From Schistocephalus solidus (lineage: Eukaryota; Platyhelminthes; Cestoda; Diphyllobothriidea; Diphyllobothriidae), in assembly GCA_017591395.1 (NCBI GenBank), contig WEDG01001004.1:1-64000 (forward strand): a DNA stretch of 64,000 bases, written 5' to 3'. Numbering within the stretch: position 1 is the first letter of the stretch; each line of letters opens with the position of its first letter. A model generated the notes under the pieces. That model did not search any database. It was not told where the DNA came from and saw only the letters and a list, made by a program, of their open reading frames with translations. The translations under genes were made by a program, and so were the position numbers. This document shows, one piece after another, positions 14,778 through 54,266 of this stretch.

Positions 14778-16262
14778 AGTCTGAAGGCATGCATATCACT
14801 TGGCTCCAATGGGATTCCAGCACAGTTACTCCACGAGCTTGCTAGGGAGCTGGCTAAACCACTATCCTTTCTGTGCCAGAAATTTTTTGATACTGGAATT
14901 CTTCCTACCGACTGGAAAACAGCCCACATTACACCGCTCCACAAAGGCGGTCGTTGTGCATTTGCTAAAACTACAGGCTTGTCAGCTTGACCTCAATCTG
15001 TTGCAAGTTTATGGAGAAGGTTATCAAAAAGGAATTAAGTTTTATTTAGAAACCCATAATCTCTAATTTAATGCACAATACGGATTTCGTAGGGGAAGAT
15101 CGTGTGTTACGAACTTACTTTATACGATGCGAAGCTGGACAAAAGCCCTCGATGCAAAAGACACTGTGCATGTTGCCTACATTGATTTCCAGAAGGCCTT
15201 CGATAGTGTTCCGCACCAGCGTCTCCTTTACAAGTTGTGAATAATAGGTATTGGAGGCAAACTTCTTACGTGGATCAAGAATTTTCTTGTTTGTCGTTCC
15301 CAAGTGGTCTGTTTAGGCGGATCGCGATCAAAGCGCAAAGTCATCGTTAGTGGAGTCCCACAAGGTTAAGTGCTCGGACCGATCCTATTTGTCGGTTTCA
15401 TTGATGATTTTGTACAGGACTTTGCTATGTTTGCTGAAGATATAAAAATCTGGAAAGTTATCAACGATGCTGCCGATGAAGACGATTTCCAAGAAAATCT
15501 TCGTCGATTGGACGAGTGGTCCCGCATACGGCTCTTGTCCTTCAACTCAAACAAATGCGCCCTGCTACGTCTGGGAAATATAAATCAGGTCACTGATATG
15601 CGGCCCTACTATTTGAACCGTTTGCCATCCCGAGAAGCTCAAACACAGAAAGATCTCGGCGTTTGGATGAAAGAGAACCTGAAGCCTTCTATGCAATTTT
15701 GCAAGGCGGCTAAATCCGCCAATTCAATGCTGTATGCTATCAAGCGGGCATTTAAAGTTTTCGATAAGGACTGCTTTTATACAGCCTTTGGTACGCTTGT
15801 ATGGCCACATTTTGAATAAGCGATCCAAGCCTGGCGACTGTGGACCCAACATGACTACAAGATGCTTGAAAGGGTGCAGCGGCGAGCCACAAAATAAGTA
15901 AGAGGTCAATATGAACTGCCATATGAGATTCACATAAATAATCAAAAGCTCTATCCTCTGAGTTATAGGCAATTGCTCGGAGACTTGAAACAAACCTTAT
16001 GTATCGTTTGTGGCATGGATTGCGCCCTCCCATGTGATGACCTTTTCCAACTTGCCAGTACAAATAATCTCCGAGGTCATCCATTCAAACTTAGTTTGCC
16101 TGAAGTAAGATTGGATGTCAGGAAGTATTTTTTCACCAACCGTGTCGTAGAACCGTGAAATAAACTACCTGAGGTGATTGTCATGTCCCAGTCTGTGTAT
16201 CCATTCACATATCGGCTTGACATACATATGTTGCAGCACCACGAAGACTATATGACTACTTA
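14778..16262 (+). pseudogene. LINE reverse transcriptase pseudogene, longest copy
   Basis: This is the most complete RT of its family here. Fingers appear in shifted frames near 14.88-14.95 kb (FDTGILPTDWKTAHITPLHK). Palm motif A is DFQKAFDSVPHQRLL (15.19 kb). The open frame 15370-15819 begins LGPILFVGFIDDF, has FAEDIKIWKV where FADD is expected, then AQTQKDLGVWMKENLKPS and AIKRAFKVFDKDCF. After a stop the same frame continues with ERVQRRATK, LRGHPFKLSLP and VRKYFFTNRVVEP, ending at about 16.26 kb. Two defects are plain: the catalytic FADD reads FAED, and the PQG motif is followed by a stop (PQG*V). No endonuclease domain is present, so it is 5' truncated and dead. Confidence 0.88.
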
Positions 16263-17334: not shown

Positions 17335-18073
17335 CAAAACCAATGATCTCAAACTTTGGCGCGTCATGCAAACTGCGGCTGATGAAGAAAACTTGCAGGA
17401 AATCTTAAATAAACTCCAAAAATGGTCAAAGGACTGGCTCTAGCCGTTCAATGAGAGGAAGAGCAATACCATACGAGTCGTAAAAAGTAATCTTTCGAAT
17501 CGTACGGTTTACCGAATACATAGAATACCTTTTGAAACAAGTGAATGCCCAAAAGGACCTGGGAGTCTGGATCACTTACTCGTTTAAAACCTCTCTTAAT
17601 TGCGTAAAGGTTGCGTTGTCTGCGATGTCGATTCTCTACCACGTCAAACGAGCTTTTTCAGTCTTCAATGAAGACTGCTTTACCAAAGTTTTGAACATTT
17701 TTGCCGCCGCAGTCGGAAATTCGCTATCCGCTTGGAGACTCTGGGCAGCGAAGGAAATCAACCTCCTCGAAAAGGTCAAAAGGCGAGCAACCAAACTTGT
17801 CCATGGACAGGGCCCACGGCCGTATTAAACATGACTATATAATCTTAATCTTCTTGCCCTAGCGCTATAGCCAGCTTCGGGGAGACTTGGTACTCACCTT
17901 CCGCATATAACGCGTTACGGACTTGTTTCTTGTCCAAGGCGATATCTTCGAGTTCGCAACCCCAGTGAAATTGGAAGATCATCCTCTCATATTACGTGTG
18001 GCTGGGGCAAGGCTAGACATTTGGAAGTACTTTTTCTCCAAAAGAGTGGGCGAAGCTTGAAAAAATCTTCCTC
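17335..18073 (+). pseudogene. LINE reverse transcriptase fragment ending at the satellite
   Basis: Pieces of the same RT type as 14.8-16.3 kb appear in order. They are LKLWRVMQTAADEENLQEIL, then (17532-17828) NAQKDLGVWITYSFKTSLN, VKRAFSVFNEDCF and LEKVKRRATKLVHGQG, then LEDHPLILRV-like and DIWKYFFSKRVGEA near 18.03 kb. Several stops and frameshifts are present and the fingers and first palm motif are absent. Its 3' end runs directly into the first satellite unit at about 18.07 kb, so the LINE and satellite share a boundary. Confidence 0.8.
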
Positions 18074-19060
18074 TGGTATATTGAATCCAGATAATAATCG
18101 GGTAAATAATTTCTGAAATGTTTAAGTGCAGGACATGGAGTCAGGTGATTCGGACATGACTTTCTAGGGTCACATCCAAAATTTCAATTAACATTCGGGT
18201 CGAAGACAATCAACCATGGTGGAATAACCCCGTAATGCCCATTCTACAAACAAGTAGTACTACAGGTAGAATTAATCTTATATGAAAAATACGTTATACC
18301 GTACTTCCGACATATATACTAGCTTTAAGCCCAGAAACGTGTTTCGCCGATGTTTCTGCTGCTATGTGACACAGCAACGAGGGGTTCGGTTACTCAGTGG
18401 GTCCCCCAGCATTCTCTAAGCGGTTGTGGGTATATGGACTCCAGAGCATAATCGGGTAAATAAATTCTGAAAATATTAAGTGCAGGACATGGAGTCAGGT
18501 GATTTAAACATGACTTTTCAGGGTCAGACCAATCTTTCAATGAACATTTCGGTCGAAGACAATCAAACCCTGTTGAATAACCACCAAATGCCCATTCTGC
18601 AAAATGGTAGTACTACAAGAAGCATAAATCTAATATGGCAAAGATGTTATACCGTACTTCCGATATATATACTAGCTAAAAGCCCAGACACGTGAGTTTT
18701 GATATTCTGCTGTGTGACATCAGTAACGAGGGGTTTGGTTACTCAGTGGATCTCCCAGCGTTTCTCTATGCAGGTTTCTGGTATATGGACTCAGAGAATT
18801 GATAGTCTGAAATTATTAGAAGCAAGACATAGAGTCAGGTGATTCGGACATGACTTTTCAGGGTCAGACCAAACTTTCAATGAACATTTCGGTCGAAAAC
18901 CATCAACCCCTGTGGAATAACCACCAAATAACCATTCTACAAAATAGTAGTACTACAAGTTGCATAAATCTTATATGGCAAAGATGTTATACCGTACTAA
19001 CGACATTAGTACTTTCTTAAAGCCCCAACGCGTGTTTCACCTTTGTTTCTGCATTCGGAT
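18074..19060 (-). repeat. 354-bp satellite, inverted portion (2-3 units)
   Basis: Between 18074 and 19060 the satellite lies opposite to the main array. Two near-complete units and a third truncated one can be followed by the landmark tgcaggacatggagtcaggt at 18.13, 18.48 and (altered) 18.83 kb. On the minus strand the hammerhead core position reads CTGAGTA at 18391-18397 and 18740-18746 instead of CTGANGA, so these units have lost an essential G and should not cleave. The orientation switch is at about 19052-19061, with a few filler bases. Confidence 0.9.
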
Positions 19061-19864
19061 GTGACCCTAAAAAGTCATGTCCGAATCACCTGAGTCCATG
19101 TCCTGCACTTAATTATTTCAGAAATTAATTACCGGATTTTTATCTGGAGTCCATATACCAGAAACCGCATAGAGAACGCTGGGGGACCCACTGAAGATCC
19201 AAACCCCTCGTTGATGTGTCGAACAGCAGCAAAAACATCGGCGAAACACGTGTCTGAGCTTAAAGCTAGTATTTATGTCGGAATCACGGTATTAAGTCTT
19301 TGCAATGTAGGATTTATTCTACTTGTTGTACTACTTGTTTGTAGAATGGGCATTACGTGGTTATTCCACAGTGGTTGATTGACTTCGACCCAAATGTTCA
19401 TTGAAATTTTGGTCTGACCCTAAAAAGTCATGTCCGAATCACCTGACTCCATGTCCTGCACTTAATAATTTCAGAAATTATTTACCCGATTATTCTCTGG
19501 AGTCCATACACCAAAACCCGATAGAGAACGCTGGGGACCACTGAGAGCCGAACCTCATTGCTGTGTCACACAGCAGCAGAAACATTAGTGAAATATGTGT
19601 CTATGATTTTAGCTAGTATCTATGTCGGAAGTACGGTATAAAGCTTGCCATATAAGATTCATACTACTTGTAGTACTACTTGTTTGTAGAATGGGCATTA
19701 CGTGGTTATTCCACAGTGGTTGATTGTCTTCGACCCAAATGTTCATTGAAATTTCGGGTCTGACCCTAAAAAGTCATGTCCGAATCACCTGACTCCATGT
19801 CCTGCACTTAATAATTTCAGAAAATTATTTACCCGATTATTCTCTGGAGTCCATATACCAGAAA

Positions 19865-19982
19865 CCGCATAGAGAACGCTGGGGGACCCACTGAGGAGCC
19901 GAACCCCTCGTTGCTGTGTCACACAGCAGCAGAAACATCGGCGAAACACGTGTCTGGGCTTTTTAGCTAGTATCTATGTCGG
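19865..19982 (+). ncRNA. type I hammerhead ribozyme motif, intact unit
   Basis: The invariant core is complete. CTGAGGA (19891-19897) fits CUGANGA. Stem II pairs GCCGA (19898-19902) with TCGGC (19938-19942), capped by the hairpin GCTGTG/CACAGC. GAA (19943-19945) follows, then the short helix III ACACGTGT (19946-19953), which can be a 2-bp stem with an ACGT loop or a self-complementary stem. The cleavable C is 19954. Stem I pairs CCCA (19887-19890) with TGGG (19955-19958), then GCT (19878-19880) with AGC (19965-19967), then CATAGA (19868-19873) with TCTATG (19973-19978), then CCG with CGG. Predicted cleavage is after GTC at 19954. Neither the fold nor activity has been tested here. Confidence 0.88.
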
Positions 19983-20216
19983 AAGTACGGTATAACGTCT
20001 TTGCCATATAAGATTCATACTACTTGTAGTACTACTTGTTTGTAGAATGGGCATTACGTGGTTATTCCACAGTGGTTGATTGTCTTCGACCCAAATGTTC
20101 ATTGAAATTTCGGGTCTGACCTAAAAGTCATGTCCGAACCACCTGACTCCATGTCCTGCACTTAATAATTTCAGAAATTATTTACCCGATTATTCTCTGG
20201 AGTCCATATACCAGAA

Positions 20217-20335
20217 ACCGCATAGAGAACGCTGGGGGACCCACTGAGGAGCCGAACCCCTCGTTGCTGTGTCACACAGCAGCAGAAACATCGGCGAAAA
20301 CACGTGTCTGGGCTTTTAGCTAGTATCTATGTCGG
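20217..20335 (+). ncRNA. hammerhead motif, near-intact unit
   Basis: The core CTGAGGA is at 20243, with stem II GCCGA/TCGGC and stem I complete. One extra A lies in the GAA-to-helix III junction (gaaaacacgtgtc), which may weaken or shift helix III or may be a homopolymer error. Confidence 0.7.
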
Positions 20336-20573
20336 AAGTACGGTATAACGTCTTTACCATATAAGATTCATACTACTTGTAGTACTACTTTGTTTGTAGA
20401 ATGGGCATTACGTGGTTATTCCACAGTGGTTGATTGTCTTCGACCCAAATGTTCATTGAAATTTCGGGTCTGACCCTAAAAAGTCATGTCCGAATCACCT
20501 GACTCCATGTCCTGCACTTAATAATTTCAGAAATTATTTACCCGATTATTCTCTGGAGTCCATATACCAGAAA

Positions 20574-20693
20574 CCGCATAGAGAACGCTGGGGGACCCAC
20601 TGAGGAGCCGAACCCCTCGTTGCTGTGTCACACAGCAGCAGAAACATCGGCGAAAAACGTGTCTGGGCTTTTAGCTAGTATCTATGTCGGAAG
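20574..20693 (+). ncRNA. hammerhead motif, helix III altered
   Basis: The core CTGAGGA is at 20600 and stem II is intact. The GAA is followed by AAACGTGTC, losing the C at position 15.2, so helix III is impaired. Confidence 0.65.
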
Positions 20694-20930
20694 TACGGTA
20701 TAAACGTCTTTTGCCATATAAGATTCATACTACTTGTAGTACTACTTGTTTGTAGAATGGGCATTACGTGGTTATTCCACAGTGGTTGATTGTCTTCGAC
20801 CCAAATGTTCATTGAAATTTCGGGTCTGACCCTAAAAAGGTCATGTCCGAATCACCTGACTCCATGTCCTGCACTTAATAATTTCAGAAATTATTTACCC
20901 GATTATTCTCTGGAGTCCATATACCAGAAA

Positions 20931-21046
20931 CCGCATAGAGAACGCTGGGGGACCCACTGAGGAGCCGAACCCCTCGTTGCTGTGTCACACAGCAGCAGAA
21001 ACATCGGCGAAACACGTGTCTGGGCTTTAGCTTGTATCTATGTCGG
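20931..21046 (+). ncRNA. hammerhead motif, intact unit
   Basis: The core CTGAGGA is at 20957, with GCCGA/TCGGC, GAAACACGTGTC and TGGG. Only peripheral bases in the outer part of stem I differ (agcttg for agctag). Confidence 0.82.
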
Positions 21047-21283
21047 AAGTACGGTATAACGTCTTTACCATATAAGATTCATACTACTTGTAGTACTACT
21101 TCTTTGTAGAATGGGCATTACGTGGTTATTCCACAGACGTTGATTGTCTTCGACCCAAATGTTCATTGAAATTTCGGGTCTGACCCTAAAAAGTCATGTC
21201 CGAATCACCTGACTCCATGTCCTGCACTTTAATAATTTCAGAAATTATTTACCCGATTATTCTCTGGAGTCCATATACCAGAA

Positions 21284-21400
21284 ACCGCATAGAGAACGCT
21301 GGGGACCCACTGAGGAGCTGAACCCCCGTTAAGCTGTTTCACACAGCAGCAGAAACATCGGCGAAACACGTGTCTGGGCTTTTAGCTAGTATCTATGTCG
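21284..21400 (+). ncRNA. hammerhead motif, intact core with stem II wobble
   Basis: The core CTGAGGA is at 21310. Stem II is GCTGA/TCGGC with one G-U wobble, followed by GAAACACGTGTC and TGGG. The apical hairpin of stem II is altered. Confidence 0.75.
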
Positions 21401-21637
21401 GAAGTACGGTATAACGTCTTTACCATATAAGATTCATACTACTTGTAGTACTACTTGTTTGTAGAATGGGCATTACGTGGTTATTCCACAGTGGTTGATT
21501 GTCTTCGACCCAAATGTTCATTGAAATTTCGGGTCTGACCCTAAAACGTCATGTCCGAATCACCTGACTCCATGTCCTGCACTTAATAATTTCAGAAATT
21601 ATTTACCCAATTATTCTCTGGAGTCCATATACCAGAA

Positions 21638-21756
21638 ACCGCATAGAGAACGCTGGGGACCCACTGAGGAGCCGAACCCCTCGTTGCTGTGTCACACACA
21701 GCAGCAGAAACATCGGCGAAAACACGTGTCTGGGCTTTTAGCTAGTATCTATGTCG
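21638..21756 (+). ncRNA. hammerhead motif, near-intact unit
   Basis: The core CTGAGGA is at 21664 with stem II intact. One extra A before helix III (gaaaacacgtgtc), as at 20.3 kb, and two extra bases in the stem II apical loop. Confidence 0.68.
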
Positions 21757-21993
21757 GAAGTACGGTATAACGTCTTTACCATATAAGATTCATACTACTT
21801 GTAGGCACTACTTGTTTGTAGAATGGGCATTACGTGGTTATTCCACAGTGGTTGATTGTCTTCGACCCAAATGTTCATTGAAATTTCGGGTCTGACCCTA
21901 AAAGTCACGTCCGAATCACCTGACTCCATGTCCTGCACTTAATACTCTCAGAAATTATTTACCCGATTATTCTCTGGAGTCCATATACCAGAA

Positions 21994-22108
21994 ACCGCAT
22001 AGAGAACGCTGGGGACCCACTGAGGAGCCGAACCCCTCGTTGCTGTGTCACACAGCAGCAGAAACATCGGCGAAACACGTGTCTGGGCTTTTAGCTTGTA
22101 TCTATGTC
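21994..22108 (+). ncRNA. hammerhead motif, intact unit
   Basis: The core CTGAGGA is at 22020, with GCCGA/TCGGC, GAAACACGTGTC and TGGG, and CATAGA/TCTATG in outer stem I. Confidence 0.82.
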
Positions 22109-22347
22109 GGAAGTACGGTATAACGTCTTTACCATATAAGATTCATACTACTTGTAGTACTACTTCTTTGTAGAATGGGCATTACGTGGTTATTCCACAG
22201 ACGTTGATTGTCTTCGACCCAAATGTTCATTGAAATTTCGGGTCTGACCCTAAAAAGTCATGTCCGAATCACCTGACTCCATGTCCTGCACTTAATAATT
22301 TCAGAAATTATTTACCCGATTATTCTCTGGAGTCCATATACCAGAAA

Positions 22348-22462
22348 CCGCATAGAGAACGCTGGGGGACCCACTGAGGAGCTGAACCCCTCGTTGCTGT
22401 TTCACACAGCAGCAGAAACATCGGCGAAACACGTGTCTGGGCTTTTAGCTAGTATCTATGTC
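22348..22462 (+). ncRNA. hammerhead motif, intact core with stem II wobble
   Basis: The core CTGAGGA is at 22374. Stem II is GCTGA/TCGGC with one wobble; GAAACACGTGTC and stem I are intact. Confidence 0.78.
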
Positions 22463-22700
22463 GGAAGTATGGTATAACGTCTTTACCATATAAGATTCAT
22501 ACTACTTGTAGTACTACTTGTTTGTAGAATGGGCATTACGTGGTTATTCCACAGTGGTTGATTGTCTTCCACCCAAATGTTCATTGAAATTTCGGGTCTG
22601 ACCCTAAACGTCATGTCCGAATCACCTGACTCATGTCCTGCACTTAATAATTTCAGAAATTATTTACCCAATTATTCTCTGGAGTCCATATACCAGAAAC

Positions 22701-22817
22701 CGCATAGAGAACGCTGGGGACCCACTGAGGAACCGAACCCCTCGTTGCTGTGTCACACAGCAGCAGGAAACATCGGCGAAACACGTGTCTGGGCTTTTAG
22801 CTAGTATCTATGTCGGA
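22701..22817 (+). ncRNA. hammerhead motif, stem II base mismatch
   Basis: The core CTGAGGA is at 22725, but the first stem II base is A (ACCGA/TCGGC), giving an A-C mismatch at the 10.1/11.1 position, which normally reduces cleavage. The remainder is intact. Confidence 0.7.
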
Positions 22818-23023
22818 AGTACGGTATAACGTCTTTACCATATAAGATTCATACTACTTGTAGTACTACTTGTTTGTAGAATGGGCATTACGTGGTTATT
22901 CCACAGTGGTTGATTGTCTTCGACCCAAACGTTCATTGAAATTTCGGGTCTGACCCTAAAAAGTCACGTCCGAATCACCTGACTCCATGTCCTGCACTTA
23001 ATAATTTCAGAAATTATTTACCC

Positions 23024-23025
<2 letters not shown>

Positions 23026-23073
<48 letters not shown>
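23026..23073. repeat. (AT)n microsatellite closing the satellite array
   Basis: About 48 bases of alternating A and T directly follow the last satellite unit. Similar tracts precede the other copies of the repeat block (29864-29902, 53568-53645). Confidence 0.95.
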
Positions 23074-23076
<3 letters not shown>

Positions 23077-23340
23077 AAAATTGGAACGGAATAAAAGCAA
23101 GTGAGACCAGAATTGAAATTTGTGGTTTTTTGGCCGTTATCAGCCGGTCATACCCAATCCCAAGGGTGCCCAGTATGTCCACACGTGGCCAAAAAGTAAA
23201 GTACGGCTCTGTCGAACATATTTTTTTGTACTAGTTAATGTTTTTTCAAATGAGAAACACAAAACACGTCGTCAGACAAAAGGATCTTAGGAGAAATTGG
23301 GGAAGATGTGCCCAATTTAAATAAATATTATAAATTTATA

Positions 23341-23343: not shown

Positions 23344-23383
<40 letters not shown>
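23344..23383. repeat. (AT)n microsatellite
   Basis: About 40 bases of alternating A and T inside block A. No second tract of this kind is seen in the corresponding position of block B. Confidence 0.9.
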
Positions 23384-23386
<3 letters not shown>

Positions 23387-24400
23387 AATACTATTCTGAG
23401 AACTGTTTCAAAATTTAAAAAATGCAGTTAAGCGTTTCGCAGGCACTTCAAATCTTATAATTTATAAATTTATTTTTCTGAGGGTTTTAGTAAATGAAGT
23501 GAATTATGTAGCATATCAAATACAAAGTTGTAATGATATTAGTATATTTATAAGTGAACTTGCACCTTTTAATTTTGCATAACGCTCATGGCGACTTTGC
23601 AAATGCTTCTTAAAAAAGGGTTTTTGGAAAAGAAAATTTCCATGTTTAGATAGAAAATGAGTGGTAATTTATGCTTGGTCTTGGAAATCGACATTTTAAA
23701 CGCACAGCCTTTTCTCTAGACGATGTGAAGAAGAATATCTCATTATATTATATCGAAAGTATGTGCTTTAATATAAAATCGGTTTTTTGTTGATAATTAG
23801 GAACAAAATCTTATTTTTCGGACTCCCTTTATTCAAACATGTACTACTCGTAGACATGTGAATTTATTGGTTCGTTTCCGTTCTATCGTAAATCTCTAGC
23901 CAACCATAGTTGGATGACCTACGCAGGCCACATTGACCTCAATATTTTAGCCGTCAAATAAATTGGAATAAACTCAATATCTTGCTGTACCCCGTCAGTT
24001 AAAAGTTTTACACCATAGACAATTGTGACTTCTTATCCGTTGTCAACCAGCAGCGTTCGATCATTTGTTGTTTGAACAGATAAGTGTTTCAAATGAAAAT
24101 TAAATAATGCTGCTTACTGTTGTCATAAGGTTTTGGAAATCGTTTTTATAGAAGAGGCTATGTGCATCAGGTTATGCTAAAATACAATTCTTAATAACGA
24201 GCAGACGCATTCATCCGCATTAAGTTTGAGTTCATGCAAGTTTGCATAGTTTACATCAGTTCATTTTGGGTAAACGTTATAGCGGTTACTGTGTTAAGCG
24301 TCGAGATGTATGTTATTAGTTTATACCAGGTTATTTGTTGTGTCGTGTCATATTACCATTTATCAGTTTAACTGATTCCTTATTGGGTATGTGCTATTGC

Positions 24401-24402
24401 AG
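24401..24402 (+). promoter_or_regulatory. splice acceptor before the gene A first coding exon
   Basis: The sequence gtgctattgcag then tggcttga ends in AG at 24401-24402. Block B keeps it as tgctatttcag at 54204-54214. It sits 52 bases before the start codon and could be the acceptor of an upstream 5'UTR intron or of spliced-leader trans-splicing, which flatworms use. This is inference. Confidence 0.45.
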
Positions 24403-24429
24403 TGGCTTGAAAAACCAGTTCGAAAGAAA

Positions 24430-24447
24430 ATGAGCATTTTGGACTGA
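24430..24447 (+). promoter_or_regulatory. conserved upstream ORF, 5 codons
   Basis: A start codon at 24430 encodes MSILD and stops at 24445-24447, seven bases before the start of the secreted protein gene. Copy B has exactly the same uORF (54242-54259). In copy D both this ATG and the main ATG are lost. A uORF this close could lower translation of the main frame, if both lie on the mature transcript. Confidence 0.55.
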
Positions 24448-24454
24448 GCCGACG

Positions 24455-25310
24455 ATGTTCGTTTTTTTGTTGACGTTTCTCGTACTTGCCCATGGCTGTC
24501 GAAATTATATGGGTAAGGTGATATTTTTTACCTATCAGTCATGAGTTCGAAGTGAAAATTGTTCTTAACTATAAGGCAGTCCTGATAAGTAACTGATAAT
24601 TTGTATTTATTATGTTATCATATGAATTACTCTATCAGTCCTTACTACGATTCTTTTCACAAATCTCACATTCCTGGCTTTCAGGAAACGGTAAAATGTG
24701 CCCCGAAAAAGGAAATCAGTTAAACACGTCCGCGACCGTCACACATCTCCTGACAACGATAACTTCTCTTGCACATGAAACAAGGTTTGGCACTTCTGGT
24801 CGCATCTCCTTCAAAATAATATTTCATGCTGCTCCGGTATTAAAAACCTGTTCAATTGCCAGTAATAACAACATTCGTGGATCGAAAACATTTTCCTGTG
24901 ATTTCTTCGTCCCATCTGCTGAATTTACTCTTACTAAAGAGTGAGTGATATTATTTTTTCGATGTGAGCATAGGAAAATAATATTTATATTTTCTGAACA
25001 TAATTTTTTTTCATTTAGAAATATGGAAGTTGACTCATATACCAGATACCGTTTGCATAGGAAACTTGCAAACTACATATTCAATTTGGACGGACGTGCC
25101 ATTGTGACATTCACACATGTATCTGTAGTTGGTGAAAAAGCAGCCGTTCGAAGGTTTTATTTTCCCAACTTTCAAGAAAAAATACGTGATAATCTTGTAC
25201 CTTATCCAATGTTTGACCGATCAACCTGGGCAGAATGGGCTCTTAGCCATATCGACCGCTTTGTATATTTTGCCTTTTCTAAATGGGATCCCTTGGAATG
25301 CATTTCCTAA
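24455..25310 (+). CDS. secreted protein of unknown family, three exons (copy A)
   Basis: The exons are 24455-24512, 24685-24940 and 25019-25310. Both introns are GT-AG (gtaagg/tttcag, gtgagt/atttag), and the frame stays open across phase 1 and phase 2 joins to a TAA. The protein is 201 residues. Residues 1-14 (MFVFLLTFLVLAHG) are a typical signal peptide, with no other membrane segment. Cysteines are at 15, 25, 75, 91 and 199, and an N-glycosylation sequon (NTS) is at 33-35. The rest alternates polar and aliphatic residues (GRISFKIIFHAAPVLK, AIVTFTHVSVVG), suggesting beta strands. I recognise no domain. Support for coding comes from copy B (same exon lengths and splice sites) and the distant copy D, which keeps the fold-defining pattern and the C-terminal frame. 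Expression is untested. Confidence 0.72.
24513..24684 (+). other. intron 1 of gene A
   Basis: A 172-base GT-AG intron, phase 1. Copy B has a 170-base intron at the same place (54325-54494), alignable through most of its length. Confidence 0.75.
24941..25018 (+). other. intron 2 of gene A
   Basis: A 78-base GT-AG intron, phase 2. Copy B has the same length (54751-54828) and the same donor gtgagt and acceptor tttcatttag. Confidence 0.75.
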
Positions 25311-28042
25311 TTTCGCTTAGAAGAAAAAACCCGAAATATTTGCCTAACAGTAACCATGGACCACAGTGCTCTGGTTTCTAAATACATATTGTTACTTGGT
25401 GTCATCTTATTTCCTTGAAAATCATTGGATTTAATTTTGATAAACGACGGTTACTTTAAGGTGTAAGGAACCAGGCTAAAACTTTTCTAAATGCCTTGGA
25501 CAAATTTAAATATCCTTTAGCAATTTTGAAATTATATGTTCTACCTTCGCATTATTAATAAGCCTTCATAGACTTAGCCGGAAGTGGTCATTTCAGTCAG
25601 CGTGGTCGTTGTAGGTAATGCTCTTTTTGCTAATACTAGTTAATTTGAGGATGCAAGCTGGGCTCGAGATTGTGCTCCAGGGCAAAAGCAGGATGAGTTA
25701 GTCAAGGAACGATCGGTGAAAGAGCTATCCTACAGTTGTAATAATCTTTTAGAAAACTTGAAAAGATAGAATGTGGTGATACAAAGTTTATAGTTGATAC
25801 TTTACGAAAATTATATAATAAATATGGGCAGTACAAAACAGTTAGTTGTATTAAACGTTTGAAATCATTGTGTATTAGTGGAGACTTTACTGTCATTCTA
25901 TTACAGAAATTGTCCCGTTTTAGAGATAATAGAGATTTGGTTAAGAAGCAGATACATAAAATTATAAGTAAATTATTTTGTCTGAATGTAACTTCACACC
26001 GAAAGACGTTTGCGAAATACGACGTGAATTATACCATGGGGAACCAGTTCCAGATTTAGGTATAAATGCATTTTGACACTATCAACTTGTGCACCGCCAG
26101 AATGACTGGCTAATTTAGGTGCTTTGGTGTACGGCGAAATCAAACTATCGAACGTGACTGCAGAAGTGGGTAGCGGGGCGCTTCAACAGATAATCAGACG
26201 CTAGCGTGACCATGTGGTGGCACAGTGGCGCACTTTTGACACAAAAAAATGTCATACAATTTCGAAGGCGTATGGTGTTGCTTCAGCTTCAAAATGCAGA
26301 AAATTGATAAAGGCTTTGGAACCTTCCGTTTTGATTGACTGAAATTGTTTTCGCAGATTAATGCTGCAGGAGGTCAGGTTCCCCTCAATTACCACTTACG
26401 CAATACCGGGTATCCAGAAATCGGACCAAACTCTGTGGTTTATTCGTATTGCTTGATTTTCCATCTCTGGAGAATTTGAGGTCACTCGTCTAAGAATTAC
26501 GTATTTAATCTCTGCCCGTGGAAAATTTTGAAAACAAGGTAGATTAGAAACATCTTGTAAGGTTTAAAGTCGCTTCATGCCTAAACAAATTCAGGCAAAT
26601 GTTTCCTCGTCTAATAACGCTTTTGTTTTCTCGCGGGGTTGGTTTCATTCTCTTAAAAACACGCATTCCTGATTCAACATACCGACTTTAATCGTTAAAA
26701 TCATCGAAGTTTTCCTTCTGTACGCCTCTTCCATATATTTGTTATTAAGAGTTTGAATGGCTGTTTTCGCCAAGAAGAGCCGAACTATTCATAACAGCAG
26801 CACTTTGAATTTGTGATTCTTTAATTTGGTTTTCAATGACTATTGCGATTTGGATAACCGAAGCAAGAAGCCTATCTTGGCGAGGGTCGATTTTGCCATG
26901 TGTTACATTCAATTACAAATCGTGGTTCACTTCTTTCTCGGGACAAAAAACAACACCAATTTTGAAATCAACAAATTTAATATCCGTTAAGGCGGTCTAC
27001 CCATTTACAAACTCGATAAGCGAGCTCAGAAATAAGTCAATGGAACATTCCGGTGTTTATGGTCATTACCTTGGCGCAAACATGTTGGCCCCTAACTTTC
27101 CTCAACCGGCAGCATTAAAACAAACACAAATTGCAGTGTTCAAGCCTCCGGTGAGCCATTGAACTCAACAGCCAATCGGAGAAAGCAGAAACTTTGCGCG
27201 AAAAAATGAATAACGGGGCGGCATCGCCAGCAAATCTACCGAAAGAACAGATCCGGCAAACAGAGGGTGGTTTTCAAGTTTAGCTACGCGTTTAACTACT
27301 AATGATGGAAGTCGCGTCGGCTGCGTCGCCTTTCGTTTCTACCACGTGAAATTTATCACGCCAAACAGGTAACGTTTAATGTTGCAAAAATGTTAGGATG
27401 AAGCGTAAAAATTCGCTGGTTTCGCCGATTTAAATATTTTGCCGGTCATTCGTAACATATTTTGAGGGTTCGATCCGCTACCGTTATTCACCATTAACAT
27501 ATTGTTATTTGGAATTCGAGCGATTCGGTGGGTACTGGTTTTGCCATAACCATCTGGCGAGTTGGTACTAAAGTCCAGAACCACGCAACTTCGTTAGGTA
27601 TTAAAGCTATGAACGATACAAGGTTCACTCGGTACCAGGTGATATCTTATAAAAGTACCGATGCTCATTTGAACTAAAATACTTGACATCAACGCGGTAT
27701 TAGAGGTGAAATGCCTAATGTAACTTTAAAGATCTTCCGGCTGAGCCATGCATGACTGGATGCTGTTAACAAGCGTTGGGATTGCCCCAATTTCGTTTTT
27801 GTGCACGGTATTCTCTCAGTCCGGCGGGAAGGACACGACTCAACAGACTTATTTGCCTTCGAAGCAACCTCAAATATACCTCATTTGCTTCATGGGTTAC
27901 GTGGATTTACCGGTTTAACGGCCGTTCTTTGGTTTGTTGTTTGTGAAAGTGACGGCGTATCAGGTCGAATCAAAGGACGGAATGTTAAAGGCTACGATGG
28001 ACATCAACAGTGTTCTTCCGCACTCCTGTTACCGTTTACGTG
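25311..28042 (+). repeat. 3' segment of repeat block A
   Basis: Non-coding repeat aligning in order with 55.14-58.66 kb of block B. Anchors are cttcatagacttagccgga (25566 and 55369), gactttactgtcattct (25882 and 55686), gcatcgcca (27223 and 57825), caccattaacatattgttat (27490 and 58096) and aacggccgt (27918 and 58557). The stretch from 26.6 kb on differs from block B by many substitutions and small insertions, unlike the gene just upstream. Frames at 26836-27162 and 27801-28127 are not conserved in block B. The block stops near 28042, where satellite sequence begins. Confidence 0.7.
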
Positions 28043-29850
28043 GCCACTAAGAGAACCGAACCCTCGTTTGCCGGTAATAAAGCGTAGCAGAACATCGGCG
28101 AAAACGCGTGTCTGGGCTTTTAGCTAGGTATATGTTGGAGAATTACGATTACTGTCTTTTACCTATAAGTTCGCTACTAATATTTGTTTCGCGTTGAACA
28201 TGGGCGTTGTTCCATGCGTGGTTGATTTTCTTCGGTAAATGTTCTGGAACTTTCGGTCCTGACCCTAAAAGTCGCGTATCCGAATCAAAAGGCGGGCTTC
28301 CGTATTCATACGCCAAAATTTCAGAAATTTTTCTCCGATTATTCTGGAATCCATATAAACGCTTAGAGAGCAGGACACTGGGGAATTGAAACCACGTTAA
28401 CGTGTCGGCGGCGGCGAAACATCGGCGAAATACCCTGTCCCGAGCTTTGGCTGGTACTATTAAGTAGGTAATACTGTCTTTTTTATGTAAAGTTCATTTC
28501 GCGTGATGCTTTGGCGCTTTCGGAATGAACAACGTAATTAATTGCGGTGGTTTGATTATCTTCACGGGCCCGAAATAAATCATTTGGTACAGGACTGACT
28601 CTCAAGTCGTATCCGAGATCACCACTATTGACTCCATAATATAACCGGAAATTATTTCCGCAGAATTCTTCTCTGCGGATCATATGCCAGAGCAGCAGGG
28701 CAACGAGGACGCTTTGAAGACCGAAACCCGTTCTTTAATCAAAGCGGCGGCGGAAACATCGACGTACGTGCGTGCCGGAACTTTAGCTAGTACCTTTGTC
28801 GGAGAATTACGGAAAGTGAAACTGTTTTGCCATATCAGATTCGCATACAACTTGGCATTTTCGCGTACGGTGGCGGAATGGGCATTACCTCAGTTTATTT
28901 CCACGCTGGTACGGTTGATTTATTATTTGGGCCCAAATGTTCGCATTTAGACTTTTCGTTACGAGCCTAAAAATTAATAATCCCGAATAGCGTGGGCTTT
29001 ATTGTGCTGCGCCGTTTCAAAATTTTTTGCCGGGTTATTCTCTGGGATCCATATAAGCGAGAGCAGCAGAGGGGACACCGAGGGGTGAAACCATGAACGC
29101 TGTCAAGCAGCAGCAAAACGAAATACCTGTCTGGGCTTTTTACCAGCTAAGTACCTATCTCCGTAAGTACTGGCGCATCTTTATATAAGTTCAACCTTCG
29201 CGTAGTACTTCTTGCCTTCAAAGTGGGCGCCGGCATAATTGCTTCACTTCGGTTTGATTATCTTCATTTAAATCAATGAACATTGAAATTCGTTGTCTCA
29301 AAGTCATGTCCGAATCACCCTGACTCCATGTCCTGCATAATAATTTCCGTATTTCCCGATTATTCTCTGGAATCCATATACCAGAAACCGCATAGAACGC
29401 TGATGGACACACTGAGGGCCAGAAACCCTCGTTGCTGTAATCTTAACCTTAGAAAACTATCGAAGCGAAACACGGTAATCTGGGCTTTTAGCTAGTTGCA
29501 ACTGTCGGAGTACGGTAAACTAACGCCATGAATTCTTCTAACATACCATGAGCGCGGGGCGTGGGCATGCGTTTATTTCATAATTGGTTCGGAGTTATCT
29601 TCGATCTGAGTATTCACGACATTTTGGGTCCTGACCCTAAAAATTAAATGCGATCCACTGACCATGTCCTCACTTACTTATTTCAGAGGGTATTTTAGAT
29701 TATTCTCACGGTCCATATACCAGAAACCGCTTAGAGAACGCTGAGTTTTACACAGGAGCCAAAACCCTGTTGCTGTAAAGAGGCAGCAAAGTATCAAGCG
29801 GCTGCGTACTGGGCTTTCCGGCTTCAGTATACCTTTGTCGTTGGGACGAT
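28043..29850 (+). repeat. diverged 354-bp satellite, about six degenerate units
   Basis: The same satellite and orientation as 19.1-23.0 kb, recognised by recurring fragments: catcggcgaaa with tgtctgggcttttagcta (28.09 kb), gattattctggaatccatat (28.34 kb), tttagctagtac (28.79 kb), attctctgggatccatat (29.03 kb), ccatataccagaaaccgc (29.37 and 29.71 kb). Spacing is about 340-350. Differences from the clean array are far greater than between any two clean units, with GC-rich insertions (gcggcggcgaaac at 28.40 kb, gcggcggcgg at 28.75 kb). No unit keeps CTGANGA, stem II and GAAA together, so no active ribozyme is expected. Either this is an ancient part of the array or the consensus here is poor. 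Confidence 0.82.
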
Positions 29851-29863: not shown

Positions 29864-29902
29864 GATATATATGCCGCCGCCATATGTATATATATATATG
29901 TA
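29864..29902. repeat. interrupted (AT)n tract
   Basis: Two short TA runs (gatatatatg and gtatatatatatatgtatg) separated by a GC-rich interruption. It occupies the place of the (AT)n at 23026-23073, between satellite and repeat block. Confidence 0.6.
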
Positions 29903-32900
29903 TGGAAATATATTCGAACTTCATTTCAGGGCACAAAAAAAATCAGTTAAAAGGTTCGCGAGCATAAAATCTTATAATTTTAGAATTTATTTTTCCTAAT
30001 GGTTTTAAAATGAAGTGGATCTGTAGCATATAAAACAGGGTTATATGTGAATATTGGTTTTGTCGGTAGGGCTTTCAAACACATGAAATTTGCGTGCCGC
30101 TCGATGCGACATTTTTGAAATCTTCTAAAACGTTTTGGAAGAGATTTTATGTTTGGAGTGAAAATGGTGATTTGTGCTCATATAGAAAATGGAAACATTT
30201 TGAAACTGTGCCTTTTCTCCTGAGCGGCATTGAAGAAAATCATCTCATTATATTATATCGAGAAAGTACGTGCTTTATCTCGAATCGTTTTCGTTTCGGT
30301 GAAAGAAAGATCTGGTACTGGGGACTCCCTATGGTGAACGCCATGCTTCCTAATGGGCATCAAACTTTTATTGGCTCTTAGCCCGCTATCCCAGCCACTT
30401 TATCATTTTCCACTTTAAAATGGGATCCTTTGGAATGCATTTCCATACCAGAAACCAAAATATTTGCCCTATGGCGTAAACGCGGTTATAATTATAATTT
30501 CTTAATACATATAGTAACTTTATCTTATTTCAGCCGAAATCGTGGTTTAATTTTAAAAGCGACAATTTTGTGATTCAAAGAGACACCGGCACTGTTTTTC
30601 TAAATGCCTTGGAACAAACCTCAATATAAGCAAACATTTTTGAAATTAATGTTTCTTTGCATAAATTTATTGGCGCTTCCTTGAGATTTGGCCGGAATTG
30701 CGGTAGAACAATTAAAATGGATTGAACAGGTGACCCTTTCGCTGCCCTTCAATCTCTCTCGGTCATTTCATGTGGATAGAACACTGGGAAATAGAGATTC
30801 TCCGAATTAGAAAGAAGGGCCCCAGGATTAGTCCCACAAACGAAAAGGTTCAGAGATATTCCACGAGTTATGACAAATACTTGAGACTTGAAGAAGGGAA
30901 TGTTTTGAAAGAAACGTTAAGAAACACTTGCCTGACACAATTATATTAATAATTAATCTGGTTGGTATAGTATAATTTGGCCGTATTAAAACGTTGAGAA
31001 TTCAGAGTTATTAAATGGGCTTTGCTAATAATTATGTTATATCGAAATTGTCCTGATTTGGAGATAAAAAACGCTTTGTTCAGAAGCGTTATTGGTAAAT
31101 AAATTTTGTCCTGAATAGCGAAACTTCTGAAACACCCAGAACGACTTTGCGTTTACGTTCAAGTATACATACGAATTGGATTTGATTCGGTGGCACCGAC
31201 ACAACCACTTATGCCCAGATTTTGATAGCAGAATGGCGCCGAAAAAATTAACTGTCAAAACGTGACCACGCGTGGAAGATTGTTGAGACGAAAACAGATC
31301 ACTAAGGGCACCGAAAGCGGCCGCTCTCGACCAAAGGTCGATTATCTTGCCCACCGTGACTGAAATAAAATCCCTGGACTCTGAAAGACATGTGGTCTTC
31401 TATTTAAAAATCAGAGCGAAGGAAATTGCAGGAAACCATATCCTTTGGTTTGCGGCTGAAATTGCATGTGCACTATAATAACTACACTCGCCTGAAGGTT
31501 AGTTCTCAAATTACTTACAAGACAGTAATTAAAATCAAACCAAAATATTGTGGAACTATTAATGGCACATCAATTTCCATGGAGAGATTTGGTCGTATGT
31601 TTGAATTTCGTTTTAATCATTTTCATCGAGGAAAATACCGCGAAAGAGTGGTTGAAGCATCGCGTCGGTTTTGCTTTTGAAAGTCTGGTACGGTCATTCC
31701 GCAGTATTCATCTGACGCGACATTTCATTACTGATGAATGCTGCGGGGTTCGTACGTTAAATACCCCACCGTTTCGCCAGCACTTTCCGATGACGGTATG
31801 CAACGCAAATGATGGGTTGTTAGAATGTAACATAACGTTATGCTGCGGCTGATGTTCAATGCGGCACTTTGGAAAGCCAGATAATTTGCGGGTATTGGTG
31901 TTTTGTTCAACCCTCGCCTGAAGCGAACCACGAAATCGCGCCAAATTTGGTTCAAATTAAAAGAACCCTGATAAGCATAATAGCGCTCTGCGTTATGGTT
32001 TTCACAGTGCAGAATGGCAGAGCACCTTAATTGTTACACGGTTGCCGCTGGTGACATTCGCGGCAAAGTAATAACATTGTGTTACGTTCGAAGACTCCAT
32101 CAATTTTATTACAGCGGTCATGCAGGCGATGAAGATCCGCAAGACGGACCGCAATTTCTTTTCTTTCCTTTGCCCACTCCGCAACCTGACAAACGCATGA
32201 TTTATTCTGCTTACCCAGTACATTTGATTCTTTCACACAGCAATATCAATGTAGAAGACTGACGAGAATTTATTGAGTCCTAAAATATAATCCTCTAATT
32301 GTCTTTGCAAGTTTTCAATGGGAATTTCCACAACCCGAAAACAGAAATGTGCCTTGATCTGTTAAACAGTAAGACCTAGGGGCTTGTGTTTCTATAAACT
32401 CTGCATCCCAGCAATGTAGCATTCTATGTGAAAATAGCCAAACATCTGAGGCCATGGACTCGTTCTGATGCTGACTGGGTTTTATTAAATAAAGAAAGCT
32501 GATCTGCGCATTAATGTTTATCATACTCCACTAAACCTATACAGGTTCGACCTCGCGTTCCAAAATGATTATATTTTGGCCGTTTATGGTTTGCTTAAAA
32601 ACACGCCAGTTTAAGCTGAATGAATACTTATTGAGAAATTCGACACGTTCTCCATAGGAAAACTCGGGGGCCTGTTTGCCAAATTTAAGGAAACAAAGAG
32701 GTTATAAATTCGGGAAGATAAAATGTCCCCAACAAATTATCAAATCTTTCTGGCTCTTTTTAAATTGGTTAAGACTTTCTGGAATGATAGGCCTTTGCAG
32801 ATTGCTAGCATTTTGGCCAAATTTAAGTTTCAATTTTCTTATAAGGATGACTTTTAATTATAATTTAGGATCGGTACTTTTGGATTTATTTCAGAGTAAT

Positions 32901-34450: not shown

Positions 34451-34860
34451 GATTTTGCAGGCAACGGAAAATAGCCACATTCGAAGGAAAGGCAGGTGTG
34501 CGTACGCTAATTGAATATGATTTTAAACTCATTTAACTTATGCAAGTTCTTTATATGTATTCAAGAGAATGATTACGCCGATCCAGGAGAACTTTTAGGA
34601 GTGAGAAAAACATATCGTATTACAAAGTCATCATCTGCTACAACCAAGACGACATTTTTAAATGTTTTACTCCGCTCTTATCACCCTGTGGAGGTTTTGA
34701 CGGAGCTTTAGCTTAGGCAAAGTATACGACCTCCAGGCTTGCTAGGTGGCATACGTTGGTCATTGCATTAAAATTAAAACTGAGCTACTAAGTCTTTGAC
34801 AATATCGCTGCTCAACATCGATGTTAAAAATCGAAACTTGTATCAATAACCATTTGGAAA
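34451..34860. other. unassigned sequence with a short open frame
   Basis: A 66-codon open frame (34511-34711) has no recognised motif. It lies just upstream of an RT fragment and could belong to the same element, but I see no alignment that supports this. Confidence 0.3.
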
Positions 34861-34869
34861 GGTAACTTG

Positions 34870-35800
34870 TCATATAACGCCAATGTGGCATCCACCATCA
34901 TCGCGTCATCGGTGTTCATAAAACGCCCTCTCTTGCTAGTGTATTTAAAAAAACTAATTGCAAAACAAATTACGGCTGTTTGCATAATTTATGAATTTCT
35001 CAACTCCTCACAATGTTTTTTACCGGACCGCTCTTTTGAAACCTGCCATATGTCTTTTATTAATCTTGTAACCTTTCCTTGTCATGAGCATCTATCTGTA
35101 GAAGTTATCTATATTGCTCTTAGAAAGGCATTCGATAAAGTGCCTCATAGACGACTTCTAGCTAAATTAGAAGCCATAGAATTTTGCAGTCTCCTTACTA
35201 TCTTTATTCAAAAGCACCTAGCTGATCAAAAACAAAACAGTTTAACGGGTTCCTATTAATCATGTGCTGACCTGATTGTGAGTGGTATCCTTCAAAAGTA
35301 CCGTATAAGATCCTTTGGAGTTCTTACATAACATAAAAGATATTTCATCGAAAACTTAACATTCTCCATTATATATTTGTGCTAATGACCTCAAATGCGT
35401 GCGTTCCTTCTCTAAATCTACGGCCAAACGATGCATAGAACAAATTTATTCGGACTACTACGCTCTTTCGGCGTAGAGCTCTTCATGGCTAATGGATTTC
35501 CTACCTTCGAAGTGACGTTTCATGAGGTTTGGGCCTGTAAGGCTTTGCAACCTGTTATTTTTTAAGGTTGCCCTATGACTGAATGCTCCTGATGCCGATA
35601 TAATTACGGCCAACACTGCTCAGATTTTCGGCTTTATTTCTTATGATTTCTACCTTTCTGGAATTATATTAAGACATAATTGGATGTTTTTACTTCTCAT
35701 TCTTTGATATTTTTGTCCTGTCGGCAGTTAAATGAACGAATCTAGCCGTTCGAAAATTTCAAATGTTGTTTAGATGGTGCCTTAGCGGCGCTCATCATAT
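34870..35800 (+). pseudogene. LINE reverse transcriptase fragment
   Basis: The open frame 34867-35259 includes the segment before palm motif A (CFLPDRSFETCHMSFINLVT, equivalent to the 'GFRKGRSCETCLLSFLD' region), then VEVIYIALRKAFDKVPHRRL with the DKVPHRRLL hallmark. The first catalytic Asp is replaced (IYIALRKAF for DFSKAF). After a stop, SGILQKYRIRSF corresponds to SGVLQGSRIGPLLF. Near 35.73 kb MNESSRSKISNVV corresponds to the MDKSSHSKIENIQ segment of the copy at 47.29 kb. The FADD region is missing. It is a dead fragment of the LINE family that also occurs at 39.1, 44.2 and 46.3 kb. Confidence 0.78.
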
Positions 35801-49619: not shown

Positions 49620-50746
49620 TGTTGAAAGTAAAAATCGTTTCTGAGCCCAATTACACCATTAACATATTGTTGTTTGACTAAACGGGGTCAAATTGAGTAC
49701 GTGGGTTTTGCCATAACCATCTTCATGAGCCGACGCCCAAAGTCCAGGACACGCAACAGCGGCGCTGAATTCGTCATCCTATGGAACATTTTGGGACATC
49801 TGGTGCGCCAGTGATAATATCGTGGAATTATATTTTAACTAAAAAACTGTACTTCAACATGAGTTTTAGGGTATTGCCTAATGTAACTTTAAACATCTTC
49901 CCGTTTTACTTTTGCATAACTAGATGTGAACTTGCACGCCAAACAGGACTCTTTATTTAATTGCTCAGCGCTAGAGACTTTATTTCGTTTTCTGCATTCG
50001 GGCAAACTAGCTCGATCCATGCGAGTATGGAACACGACTTAAAGCAGACTTATTAACGCTAAGTAACCTTAAATTTATACATAATTTACTTTCACCAGTT
50101 GATATGGATTACATGTTTAAACGGCCGCTCTTTAGCTTATTGTTTGAAAAAGAGACAACTTTTCAGTCAGACAAAGGAGATATATTAAAAAGGCCACGAG
50201 GACAACAACAATCATATCCAGGTGATCAGTGTTCTTGCCTGTGTTTTTTTGACCTTATGTCCTGAAAACCTGTCTGGATTCCAATTTACAGACGAATTCA
50301 GATAGCTGTTTTAAGACATTCTAATTTACCAAAGCCTGGTATTGCTGAATGCCACTCCATGAATTTGAATTTCAAATGGTCGAGTTTATCAAAGTTTTTG
50401 ATTCTCAGGTCCGTTTACAAACGTTTGAGCAGTCAAATCACCTTTTGTCCCCCTCAACAAAAATTGGCCTTATTAGTCCGTTCGTATGGAATTCTTATTC
50501 ATTTTTCCAATTCCACTGCGTCTGGTCAGTATTTTTTTCTGCTTGGTGGTTTATTTTCTCAACTCTCAGGAGATTAAATAAAATAACCAAAAGGAACTTT
50601 CTGCCTGTCATGCATTTGTCATGTTCATGCAGCAACGTACATTCTTCTGCTTGCTACTTTGGGAGGTGATAATGTGTTTCAAACCGTGTTATATAAGAGA
50701 ATTTCGTTTTTAAGTGTATTTGTATATGATGTGCGTGAAGACCTCT

Positions 50747-50977
50747 TCAAGATTGTTTTCCATTCATTCTCTTTCTGAACGCACTTAGGGTGATACAAAA
50801 ACTTGAATCGCAAACGATATTTAAGATGAAACACTGGCCAACACACATCAGATGCACGAATTTCGAGAAATTCGGTACATCGAAATGCGTACTATTAATG
50901 ATAATTTTGATTTCAACGCCTGTTACGAAGAAGGCGTAAATTATGTTGCGTATATGCGGTAGATTTTCGTAGCTCAT
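50747..50977 (-). other. conserved region with an open frame in one of two copies
   Basis: A 76-codon minus-strand frame (NLPHIRNIIYAFFVTGVEIK, then VHLMCVGQCFILNIVC) is well aligned with 59165-59355 of block B, but there a single missing base and a second indel break the frame. No start, splice or domain evidence beyond this. It could be an unrecognised exon or merely conserved repeat. Confidence 0.3.
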
Positions 50978-51069
50978 AAATAATCAACCGATATTATAAA
51001 ATGTCATGCTTTCTTCGATGAACGCTCACCAATCTCTAACTAATAGCACTACTTTTCTCTCTAGCTTAT

Positions 51070-51240
51070 AACAAATAATTACAAAAGAGACAAAGAAGAC
51101 TGGAATAGTCGTTTTTGGCTTAATAGAAGTCGTCAGCCTGTCATACCCAACACCAGGTGGTGCACTACCCAAGGATCAAACCCGCGAGTGCCAAACACGA
51201 AGTCATGAGGATGGGCTAGCTGAATACGGCTAAGACGACA
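51070..51240 (-). repeat. truncated tRNA-derived SINE
   Basis: Corresponds to the SINE at 59.5-59.7 kb and shares gcactacccaaggatcaaac and the B box. The stretch between the B and A boxes is deleted, so the internal promoter is broken. It sits at the same place in the repeat block, so the SINE inserted before the block was duplicated. Confidence 0.65.
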
Positions 51241-52639
51241 AAAATTTTCATTCCAGTTTATCGTCTTTTCTACCGGTCATATTCACCTGCATATCCTGAA
51301 ATGTGTTTATAGTTGAACAATTGACTTAAATGGGATTGAAAGATGGGGTATATTGCAGCTCAATCTCATGATAGATCAATCACATCTGGATGTTGGTTTT
51401 TGAACGAATTTATTTGAGACCACAGGCGAGTATCATACAATGATAATATTTATTGTTCACATTGAGTGTCAATGACCTTATAAATTCCAGCATATTCAAT
51501 CGAGAACATGCAAAATAAACGTTTTCTTTCCGTCTATTTATATAAAAATCGCCTGCTTTAAGGGTTGTATCTTCAGGTTTGAAAAAATTGTCTATTTTGT
51601 CGATTGATTGAAACGCTATTGACTGTTTAACTTCTATTGACGTTTTCCAAATTTACATGCTGTATACATCTTGTGTAAAGAACATCAAACATTTCTCTGC
51701 TCGTTATTAGCGTGATCACATAGTTTTTCATACAGGGGTTTAGTGCATGTTGATTTTTGTATACTTTAGATGCATTATTACTAAATTCACGAGAACGATA
51801 GATCATGAATGATTTTTTTGACTTCCTAAGAATACTCCTAAGTTTAATTCTTAAAAAATCGAAACATAGCACTTCTTTATGCGTAAATTCTGAAAAGATC
51901 TGAGGTGTTTGTCTTTAAATAAAAGACGGAAATATACATTCCAATAGTGTTCACTCGACAAAGCCTCATTTCTCGTTCTCAAAATTAAACGAATTTCGTC
52001 GTATCTTGCTTTATTTTTAGGATAAATTGTTGATAACTTTTTCTATTTCTAAAATTTATCTACATAAAAATTTGGTTTTTCTATTTTTCAAATGGTAAAA
52101 ATATACATTATCATAGAGCTACACCCAACGAAGCCTCAAGTACCGTCCTTTATAAATCCACGTAGAAAAAAGAAATATAAAACATGCACATATAATTTAG
52201 GTTGAAAATTTTTAATTATTATTACTCTCCACAATATGTTTTTTTAATTTACTACTTTTATTGTTGACCAGTTGGAAATCAAATATAAGCATTACATTTT
52301 TAACCCGCGTAACATGCGTAAATTTCACTCATAGTTTCGACCAACAACATTTATTCGTCGTAATCTAACTGCCTCGGGACCCACACGTTGCTTGATAACA
52401 CCAAGTAGTCGCAACATTGATTCAACTATGCAATCCATAATTAAAGCTAAACAGCAAGATTTATCCACTTTACAGAATTACAATGACTTCATGATGAAGT
52501 TTGGGTCTATTTTATATACACTCGGTAACCTGTAGGATGGTCACATATCTGATATTCCATCTCAGGTTTGCCGACGTCTCGACTTACTTGTTCACATAGT
52601 CGCCAGCAAGGCTTTTAACAGACGGAAACGTAATCAAAA

Positions 52640-53564: not shown

Positions 53565-53567
<3 letters not shown>

Positions 53568-54259: not shown

Positions 54260-54266
54260 ACCGACG

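Follow-up and report, generated by a model that had tools for sequence, protein, structure and literature searches.

A tapeworm satellite with type I hammerhead motifs and a probable retrozyme-like nature

A tandem satellite on contig WEDG01001004.1 of the tapeworm Schistocephalus solidus (GenBank assembly GCA_017591395.1; positions 1 to 64,000 of the forward strand, the whole 64,000-nucleotide stretch that was analysed, hereafter the window) carries the elements of a hammerhead ribozyme in its repeat unit. We consider it probable that this array is a retrozyme-like satellite, in which units of 354 bp each encode, on the plus strand, a hammerhead of type I, either well preserved or degraded. 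The array, the ordered motif, its folds and the integrity of the copies were determined directly. The main array spans 19054-23023 on the plus strand (Tandem Repeats Finder (TRF): period 354 bp, 11.2 copies, 95% matches) and contains 11 hammerhead regions, in agreement with the tandem satellite of about 354 bp proposed in a preliminary description made from the letters of this DNA. A majority consensus was built from 8 complete monomers (length: 354 nt; mean identity: 97.2%; GC: 0.438).

The elements of a good unit follow one another as CCCA-CTGAGGA-GCCGA-(35 nt)-TCGGC-GAA-ACACGTGT-C-TGGG, flanked by GCT/AGC and CATAGA/TCTATG, which bears out both the hammerhead order and the three stem I stretches (CCCA/TGGG, GCT/AGC and CATAGA/TCTATG) that had been described. 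In the exemplar, a complete hammerhead region at 21998-22106 on the plus strand (strict descriptor and alignment), stem I consists of an outer segment CATAGA (21998-22003, pairing with TCTATG at 22101-22106), a middle segment GCT (22008-22010, pairing with AGC at 22093-22095) and an inner segment CCCA (22016-22019, pairing with TGGG at 22084-22087). The catalytic core is made of CTGAGGA (CTGANGA; 22020-22026) and GAA (22072-22074), and between them the helix II strand GCCGA (22027-22031) pairs with TCGGC (22067-22071) around a 35-nt insert (22032-22066) that holds internal loops and a distal hairpin (22041-22047/22051-22057). Helix II is thus built of 5 bp, a 9-by-9 internal loop and the distal hairpin, which has 7 Watson-Crick pairs or 9 with wobble; mononucleotide shuffling of the insert reached 9 pairs in 8 of 20,000 trials. 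Helix III is the palindrome ACACGTGT (22075-22082); four contiguous pairs would leave no loop, and therefore a monomer is limited to 2 bp with an ACGU tetraloop, while two copies can form 8 bp. Where the preliminary description gave a simple 5-bp stem II, the GCCGA/TCGGC pairing stands and the insert with its own hairpin had been overlooked; for helix III it gave 2-4 bp, of which a monomer allows at most the 2-bp form with a tetraloop, four contiguous pairs being impossible there. The expected cleavage base, C17, lies at 22083 and at 19954, 20308, 20663, 21020, 21374, 21730, 22437 and 22789 on the plus strand, 9 sites that match TGTCTGGGC; position 19954, singled out earlier, is C17 of the first good unit.

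Complete motifs were searched for by using a strict descriptor (4 bp or more in stem I and again in helix II, 3 bp or more in helix III around a loop of 0-8 nt, with CTGANGA, GAA and H17 in place), which found five of the 11 plus-strand units (cores at 19891, 20957, 21310, 22020 and 22374; regions 19868-19978, 20934-21042, 21288-21397 and 22351-22460 besides the exemplar) and had no match elsewhere in the window on either strand. A variant descriptor, with stem I shortened to 3 bp and helix III to 2 bp around a loop of 4-8 nt, returned the identical five units. CTGANGA occurs 25 times on the plus strand and 11 times on the minus strand of the window, and none of the sites outside the array completes a hammerhead motif. 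Among the plus-strand units, CTGANGA is kept in 10/11, TGTCTGGG (TGTC|TGGG) in 9/11 and an exact GGCGAA-ACACGTGT-C in 7/11. The claim that every plus-strand unit is a hammerhead was overstated because of defects in individual units: mismatches in helix I and helix II (19168), a deletion in the core (19520), one additional A behind GAA (20221 and 21642), an altered base in helix III (20577) and an A-C where helix II begins (22703).

Two further sets of copies, absent from the preliminary description, were located in the window. An inverted part of about 2.7 units adjoins the main array head-to-head at 18060-19053 on the minus strand (TRF: 18102-19025; left edge placed by eye), and the two worst plus-strand units, 19168 and 19520, both adjoin this inversion. 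The inverted units meet the main array at about 19053, and a transcript spanning the junction would fold into a long hairpin. A second, decayed array of the 354-bp unit lies at 28044-29776 on the plus strand (located by alignment and by a blastn search of the window with a single unit), with about 67-74% identity over the longer blastn matches.

The frequency of the motif in shuffled sequence was determined with a criterion of 4 bp or more in stem I, 5 bp or more in helix II and a 2-bp helix III closing a 4-8-nt loop, leaving out the outer stem I segments. Scanned on both strands, a 413-nt sequence of one unit with 60 nt added carried the motif in 3 of 463,240 dinucleotide shuffles, and shuffling the window 2,510 times yielded it in 4 of 5,020 strands; these figures are somewhat post hoc and flattering, because the thresholds were fitted to what the unit shows, and the array counts as a single observation, because all units descend from one ancestor. 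The motif statistics, which place it above chance, together with unconstrained folds that recover helices I and II and the two-copy form, uphold the earlier assignment to type I hammerheads whose helix III is very short, and a type I hammerhead ancestry of the satellite is very likely.

In the search of the window against 4,227 Rfam families, Hammerhead_1 (RF00163) was the only family listed at E-values up to 3, with a match at 22014-22089 (22.8 bits against a gathering cut-off of 34; E-value 0.56); dividing by the number of families gives it a window-wide E-value of its own of about 1e-4, which is arithmetic and not tool output. With laxer filters and E-values up to 10, positions 17800-23300 gave eight rows, among them Hammerhead_1 in two units (with equal scores; E-value 0.048 each), outranked by rliA (E-value 0.0032), whose match spans an (AT)n run. 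This run, (AT)24 at 23026-23073 (plus strand, TRF), lies directly 3' of the main array and is overlapped by all matches to rliA, pestivirus 3'UTR, mir-1277 (twice), plasmodium snoRNA and VrrA, which are below gathering and were rejected as low complexity. The Rfam alignment of the hammerhead skips 37 nt at 6 model positions in helix II, and its score likely falls below the cut-off because helix II is enlarged relative to the model. To our knowledge, such helix II inserts are unusual in hammerheads, a judgement for which the short loop of the Rfam model, rather than a survey, served as guide.

Secondary-structure energies omit the tertiary contacts on which hammerheads depend, and the folds are used here as a rough guide. 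The consensus monomer folded as an unconstrained circle reaches -95.6 kcal/mol (z -2.9; 0/200 shuffles as low), compared with z -0.6 for the antisense circle. In the sense circle the outer and middle segments of stem I pair with probabilities of 0.99-1.0 and the inner segment with 0.58-0.93; the distal hairpin reaches 0.97-1.0 and helix II 0.85-0.89. When the native pairs were enforced, counting only those that each unit can form (one missing pair was dropped for 20577 and for 22703), the fold lay 1.2-3.4 kcal/mol above the minimum in 8/11 units, 4.5 kcal/mol above it in 20577 and 16.7 kcal/mol above it in 19168; unit 19520 has no core. By eye, GGGG in the stem I internal loop (22011-22014) stands opposite CCCC in the helix II internal loop (22033-22036), as do their equivalents; these could pair in a putative loop I-loop II contact, and G-U pairing within stem I rivals that contact in the minimum fold.

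Folded as two copies without constraint, five of the 11 plus-strand units (19868, 20221, 21642, 21998 and 22351) form an exact double hammerhead, in which CTGANGA, GAA and C17 are open, helix III has 8 bp, the inner helix I of 4 bp forms between the copies and helix II of 5 bp forms inside each. Two of these five have the additional A behind GAA, and the double hammerhead was not formed by the remaining six units. The core check of these folds is uninformative for the 8 copies of the inverted part and second array, because it needs CTGANGA, which is absent there.

Two sets of results weigh against the retrozyme-like reading, the first of which concerns recognition and folding. Six of the 11 plus-strand units fail the strict descriptor, and Rfam returned 0 hits at gathering in the window; the absence of a Hammerhead_1 match above threshold is one of the outcomes that the preliminary description had named as refuting it, and only the sub-threshold score given above was reached. 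In the single-copy circle the probability of helix III is about 0.01, and the minimum fold pairs C3-U4-G5 of the core with the helix III strand. Core bases are likewise paired in the minimum folds of 9/10 single regions that have CTGANGA, the sole open core being that of the defective unit 19168. The energy gained on folding two copies was rejected as evidence, because the antisense region gains more and the gain is thus nonspecific. The monomer circle is 60% paired, below the 'above 70%' given for retrozyme RNAs in PMC4918200.

The second set concerns the other copies and conservation. Both core-covering hammerhead regions of the inverted part read CTGAGTA (G8 to T) and are broken, its third region (19010-19052) is partial, and the second array has 0/6 intact hammerhead cores. 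No target-site duplications were seen by eye in the flanks of the array, whose right edge is the (AT)n run. Covariation was rejected as structural proof: across 19 copies, two-sided changes were found at 7 pairs, where shuffles average 5.7 and slid controls give 4-8, and the covariation score was 0.132 versus 0.121 in shuffles, of which 76/500 were as high. Cells were paired in 80.0% of cases versus 77.7% in shuffles (1/500) and 24-41% in slid controls, the structure having been derived from the same 19 copies. Purifying selection on the ribozyme was also rejected, as substitutions in the ribozyme region and in the remainder numbered 8/984 and 19/1,947 in the inner units, 29/1,199 and 36/2,431 in all plus-strand units, and 109/595 and 188/1,059 in the second array; the ribozyme shows no extra conservation over the remainder, and selection on it is therefore not demonstrated.

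The lack of extra conservation and of convincing covariation and the broken state of the second array and of the two core-covering inverted copies all favour an alternative that we nevertheless regard as unlikely, namely that the array descends from an active hammerhead repeat and now spreads only at the DNA level by unequal exchange and duplication, without transcription or cleavage. It is also favoured by the homologous flanks found 3' of the main and second arrays (23361-23785 and 29882-30291; 71%), in view of which the arrays may be copies made together with their flanking DNA and not insertions. Against it stand the retention of CTGANGA in all but one plus-strand unit and the near-identity of the 8 monomers with an intact consensus motif, although homogenisation alone could also give both, and a circle fold that surpasses shuffles only in the sense orientation.

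It is much less probable that the hammerhead belongs to the end of an autonomous retroelement, of Penelope type or another, whose transcripts it processes, and not to a free retrozyme. Penelope-like elements do bear tandem hammerheads with a minimal helix III (PMC7761336), and reverse-transcriptase relics occur within the window, but no Penelope-type or GIY-YIG domain was found with Pfam in 10 of 19 open reading frames (ORFs) of at least 120 aa, a weak test that old fragments could escape, and no ORF of at least 120 aa overlaps the array. Least probable of all, and very unlikely, is an ordinary AT-rich satellite that bore the motif once by accident and multiplied it by tandem duplication: the single observation that a shared ancestor leaves, the sub-gathering Rfam score and the missing covariation support would fit it, but the shuffle counts, the further stem I segments (CATAGA/TCTATG and GCT/AGC) that lie beyond the shuffle criterion and the failure of every CTGANGA site outside the array to complete the motif argue against it.

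If the array is a retrozyme-like satellite, cleavage, circle formation and mobility would follow the pattern of its known relatives. A multi-unit transcript would be made by read-through or from a promoter, and the good hammerheads in it would cut after C17 (GTC|TGGG), most likely when paired via the palindrome ACACGUGU; paired cutting is favoured because a lone copy is predicted to have an open helix III and a partly paired core. A long interspersed nuclear element (LINE) or Penelope-type enzyme would then carry out rolling reverse transcription of the circles, by which tandem arrays would be rebuilt. Present activity of some units is likely, most probably as pairs, and by analogy we lean somewhat towards a full retrozyme life with circles.

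Animal retrozymes are described as tandem repeats with units of 150-450 bp that bear type I hammerheads, are low in GC, lack long terminal repeat (LTR) features and give linear and circular RNA (Cervera and de la Pena 2020, PMC7229834), and platyhelminths are listed there among the carriers, without detail in the portions consulted. Like the metazoan non-LTR retrozymes of that source (coral, mussel and axolotl), the tapeworm array has a tandem unit, here of 354 bp, a type I hammerhead, a short helix III and a GC content (0.438) under the 50% criterion (PMC7229834). Axolotl retrozyme hammerheads have 1-2 helix III pairs with a tetraloop and perform better as dimers (PMC7229834); the tapeworm motif resembles them in its short helix III, which in a monomer could at most form 2 bp with a tetraloop, and its folds lead us to expect action as a dimer. 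Unlike the metazoan retrozymes, its helix II has a 35-nt insert with a hairpin of its own. Most animal retrozyme circles are predicted to leave the ribozyme free to fold, so that another factor must block it (PMC7229834), whereas the single-copy fold of the tapeworm unit is predicted to block its own core and leave helix III unformed. The retrozyme-like reading offered in the preliminary description agrees with repeat size, GC content and tandem form.

Hammerheads of the schistosome SM-alpha satellite were reportedly described by Ferbeyre in 1998. Likened by description, the tapeworm satellite shares with the schistosome SM-alpha/W-element hammerheads (PMC8490949) its phylum, a satellite-like form, type I hammerheads and a mixture of intact and broken copies. 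Three of five tested W-element hammerhead candidates cleaved in vitro, and of the two that did not, one had a core mutation and the other a cleavage-site deletion (PMC8490949); by analogy, these results may serve as a fair guide to which tapeworm copies work. Schistosome repeats have been reported with a full tRNA (PMC4918200), unlike the tapeworm window, in which ARAGORN finds 0 tRNAs. Raw matches to RNA polymerase III boxes, taken without a shuffle baseline, comprise one A-box and two B-box matches with one mismatch each on the plus strand and one exact A-box match on the minus strand.

Newt satellite 2 (PMC6155905, PMC7229834) is alike in its repeat of about 330 bp, its internally looped helix I extension, its weak helix III and its cleavage by ribozyme pairs, which is here a prediction; it differs in animal phylum and with respect to the helix II insert of the tapeworm unit. 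The hammerheads of Penelope-like elements and Terminons are also type I, with a minimal helix III and tandem copies, and are thought to act via dimeric motifs (PMC7761336); theirs are minimal motifs, and examination of part of the tapeworm window turned up no such element. The repeatome of the tapeworm Caryophyllaeus includes Penelope and satellite clusters, and the word 'ribozyme' is absent from the text of that report (PMC12274263). No report of cestode hammerheads was found in the open-access literature by titles and abstract openings, a scope outside which most subscription papers lie, and exact patterns from the 354-bp unit had 0 matches in viral contig and genome contig collections. We conclude that the satellite belongs to a known kind, as a flatworm representative whose helix II is atypical; the insert in that helix sets it apart from the animal retrozymes and the schistosome repeats alike.

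A more specific proposal, which we put forward tentatively and think more doubtful than not, is a cestode retrozyme lineage with a hammerhead variant below the Rfam cut-off, marked by a nested helix II domain and a self-complementary helix III; according to the folding models, cleavage would take place between two ribozymes of one tandem transcript and the released circle would shut its own core. If true, the self-shut core would provide one explanation of how the circles of animal retrozymes escape reopening. The palindromic helix III bears on the need for two adjacent ribozymes and hence on what keeps RNA circles closed in animals, a question left open in the Discussion of PMC7229834. Hammerhead satellites within flatworms would extend to tapeworms, and the present case suggests that helix II inserts may conceal genuine hammerheads from Rfam-based surveys.

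Blocks recur across the window, and the arrays therefore sit in a repeatedly duplicated region. Duplicate blocks at 24389-26040 and 54201-55846 are 85% identical and by eye resemble a small gene of several exons whose N-terminus is hydrophobic; the ORF at 24945-25310 has no homologue at E-values up to 0.001 among 5.8 billion proteins. Further long blocks of about 82% identity pair 49622-51891 with 58064-60344 and 51900-53462 with 62140-63654. An (AT)40 run at 53565-53645 lies directly 5' of yet another copy, the third, of the downstream block (from 53649 on); no satellite array is present there. Relics of reverse transcriptase are scattered along the window. One at 15370-15819 shares 65-77% identity with four proteins, each of them named Schistocephalus solidus, which points to a diphyllobothriid tapeworm as the probable source of the window. 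A LINE-like one at 2380-2892 was recognised by eye only and has no Pfam match, and the ORF at 34828-35259 has a weak Pfam match to RVT_1 and two weak matches to proteins bearing a reverse-transcriptase domain.

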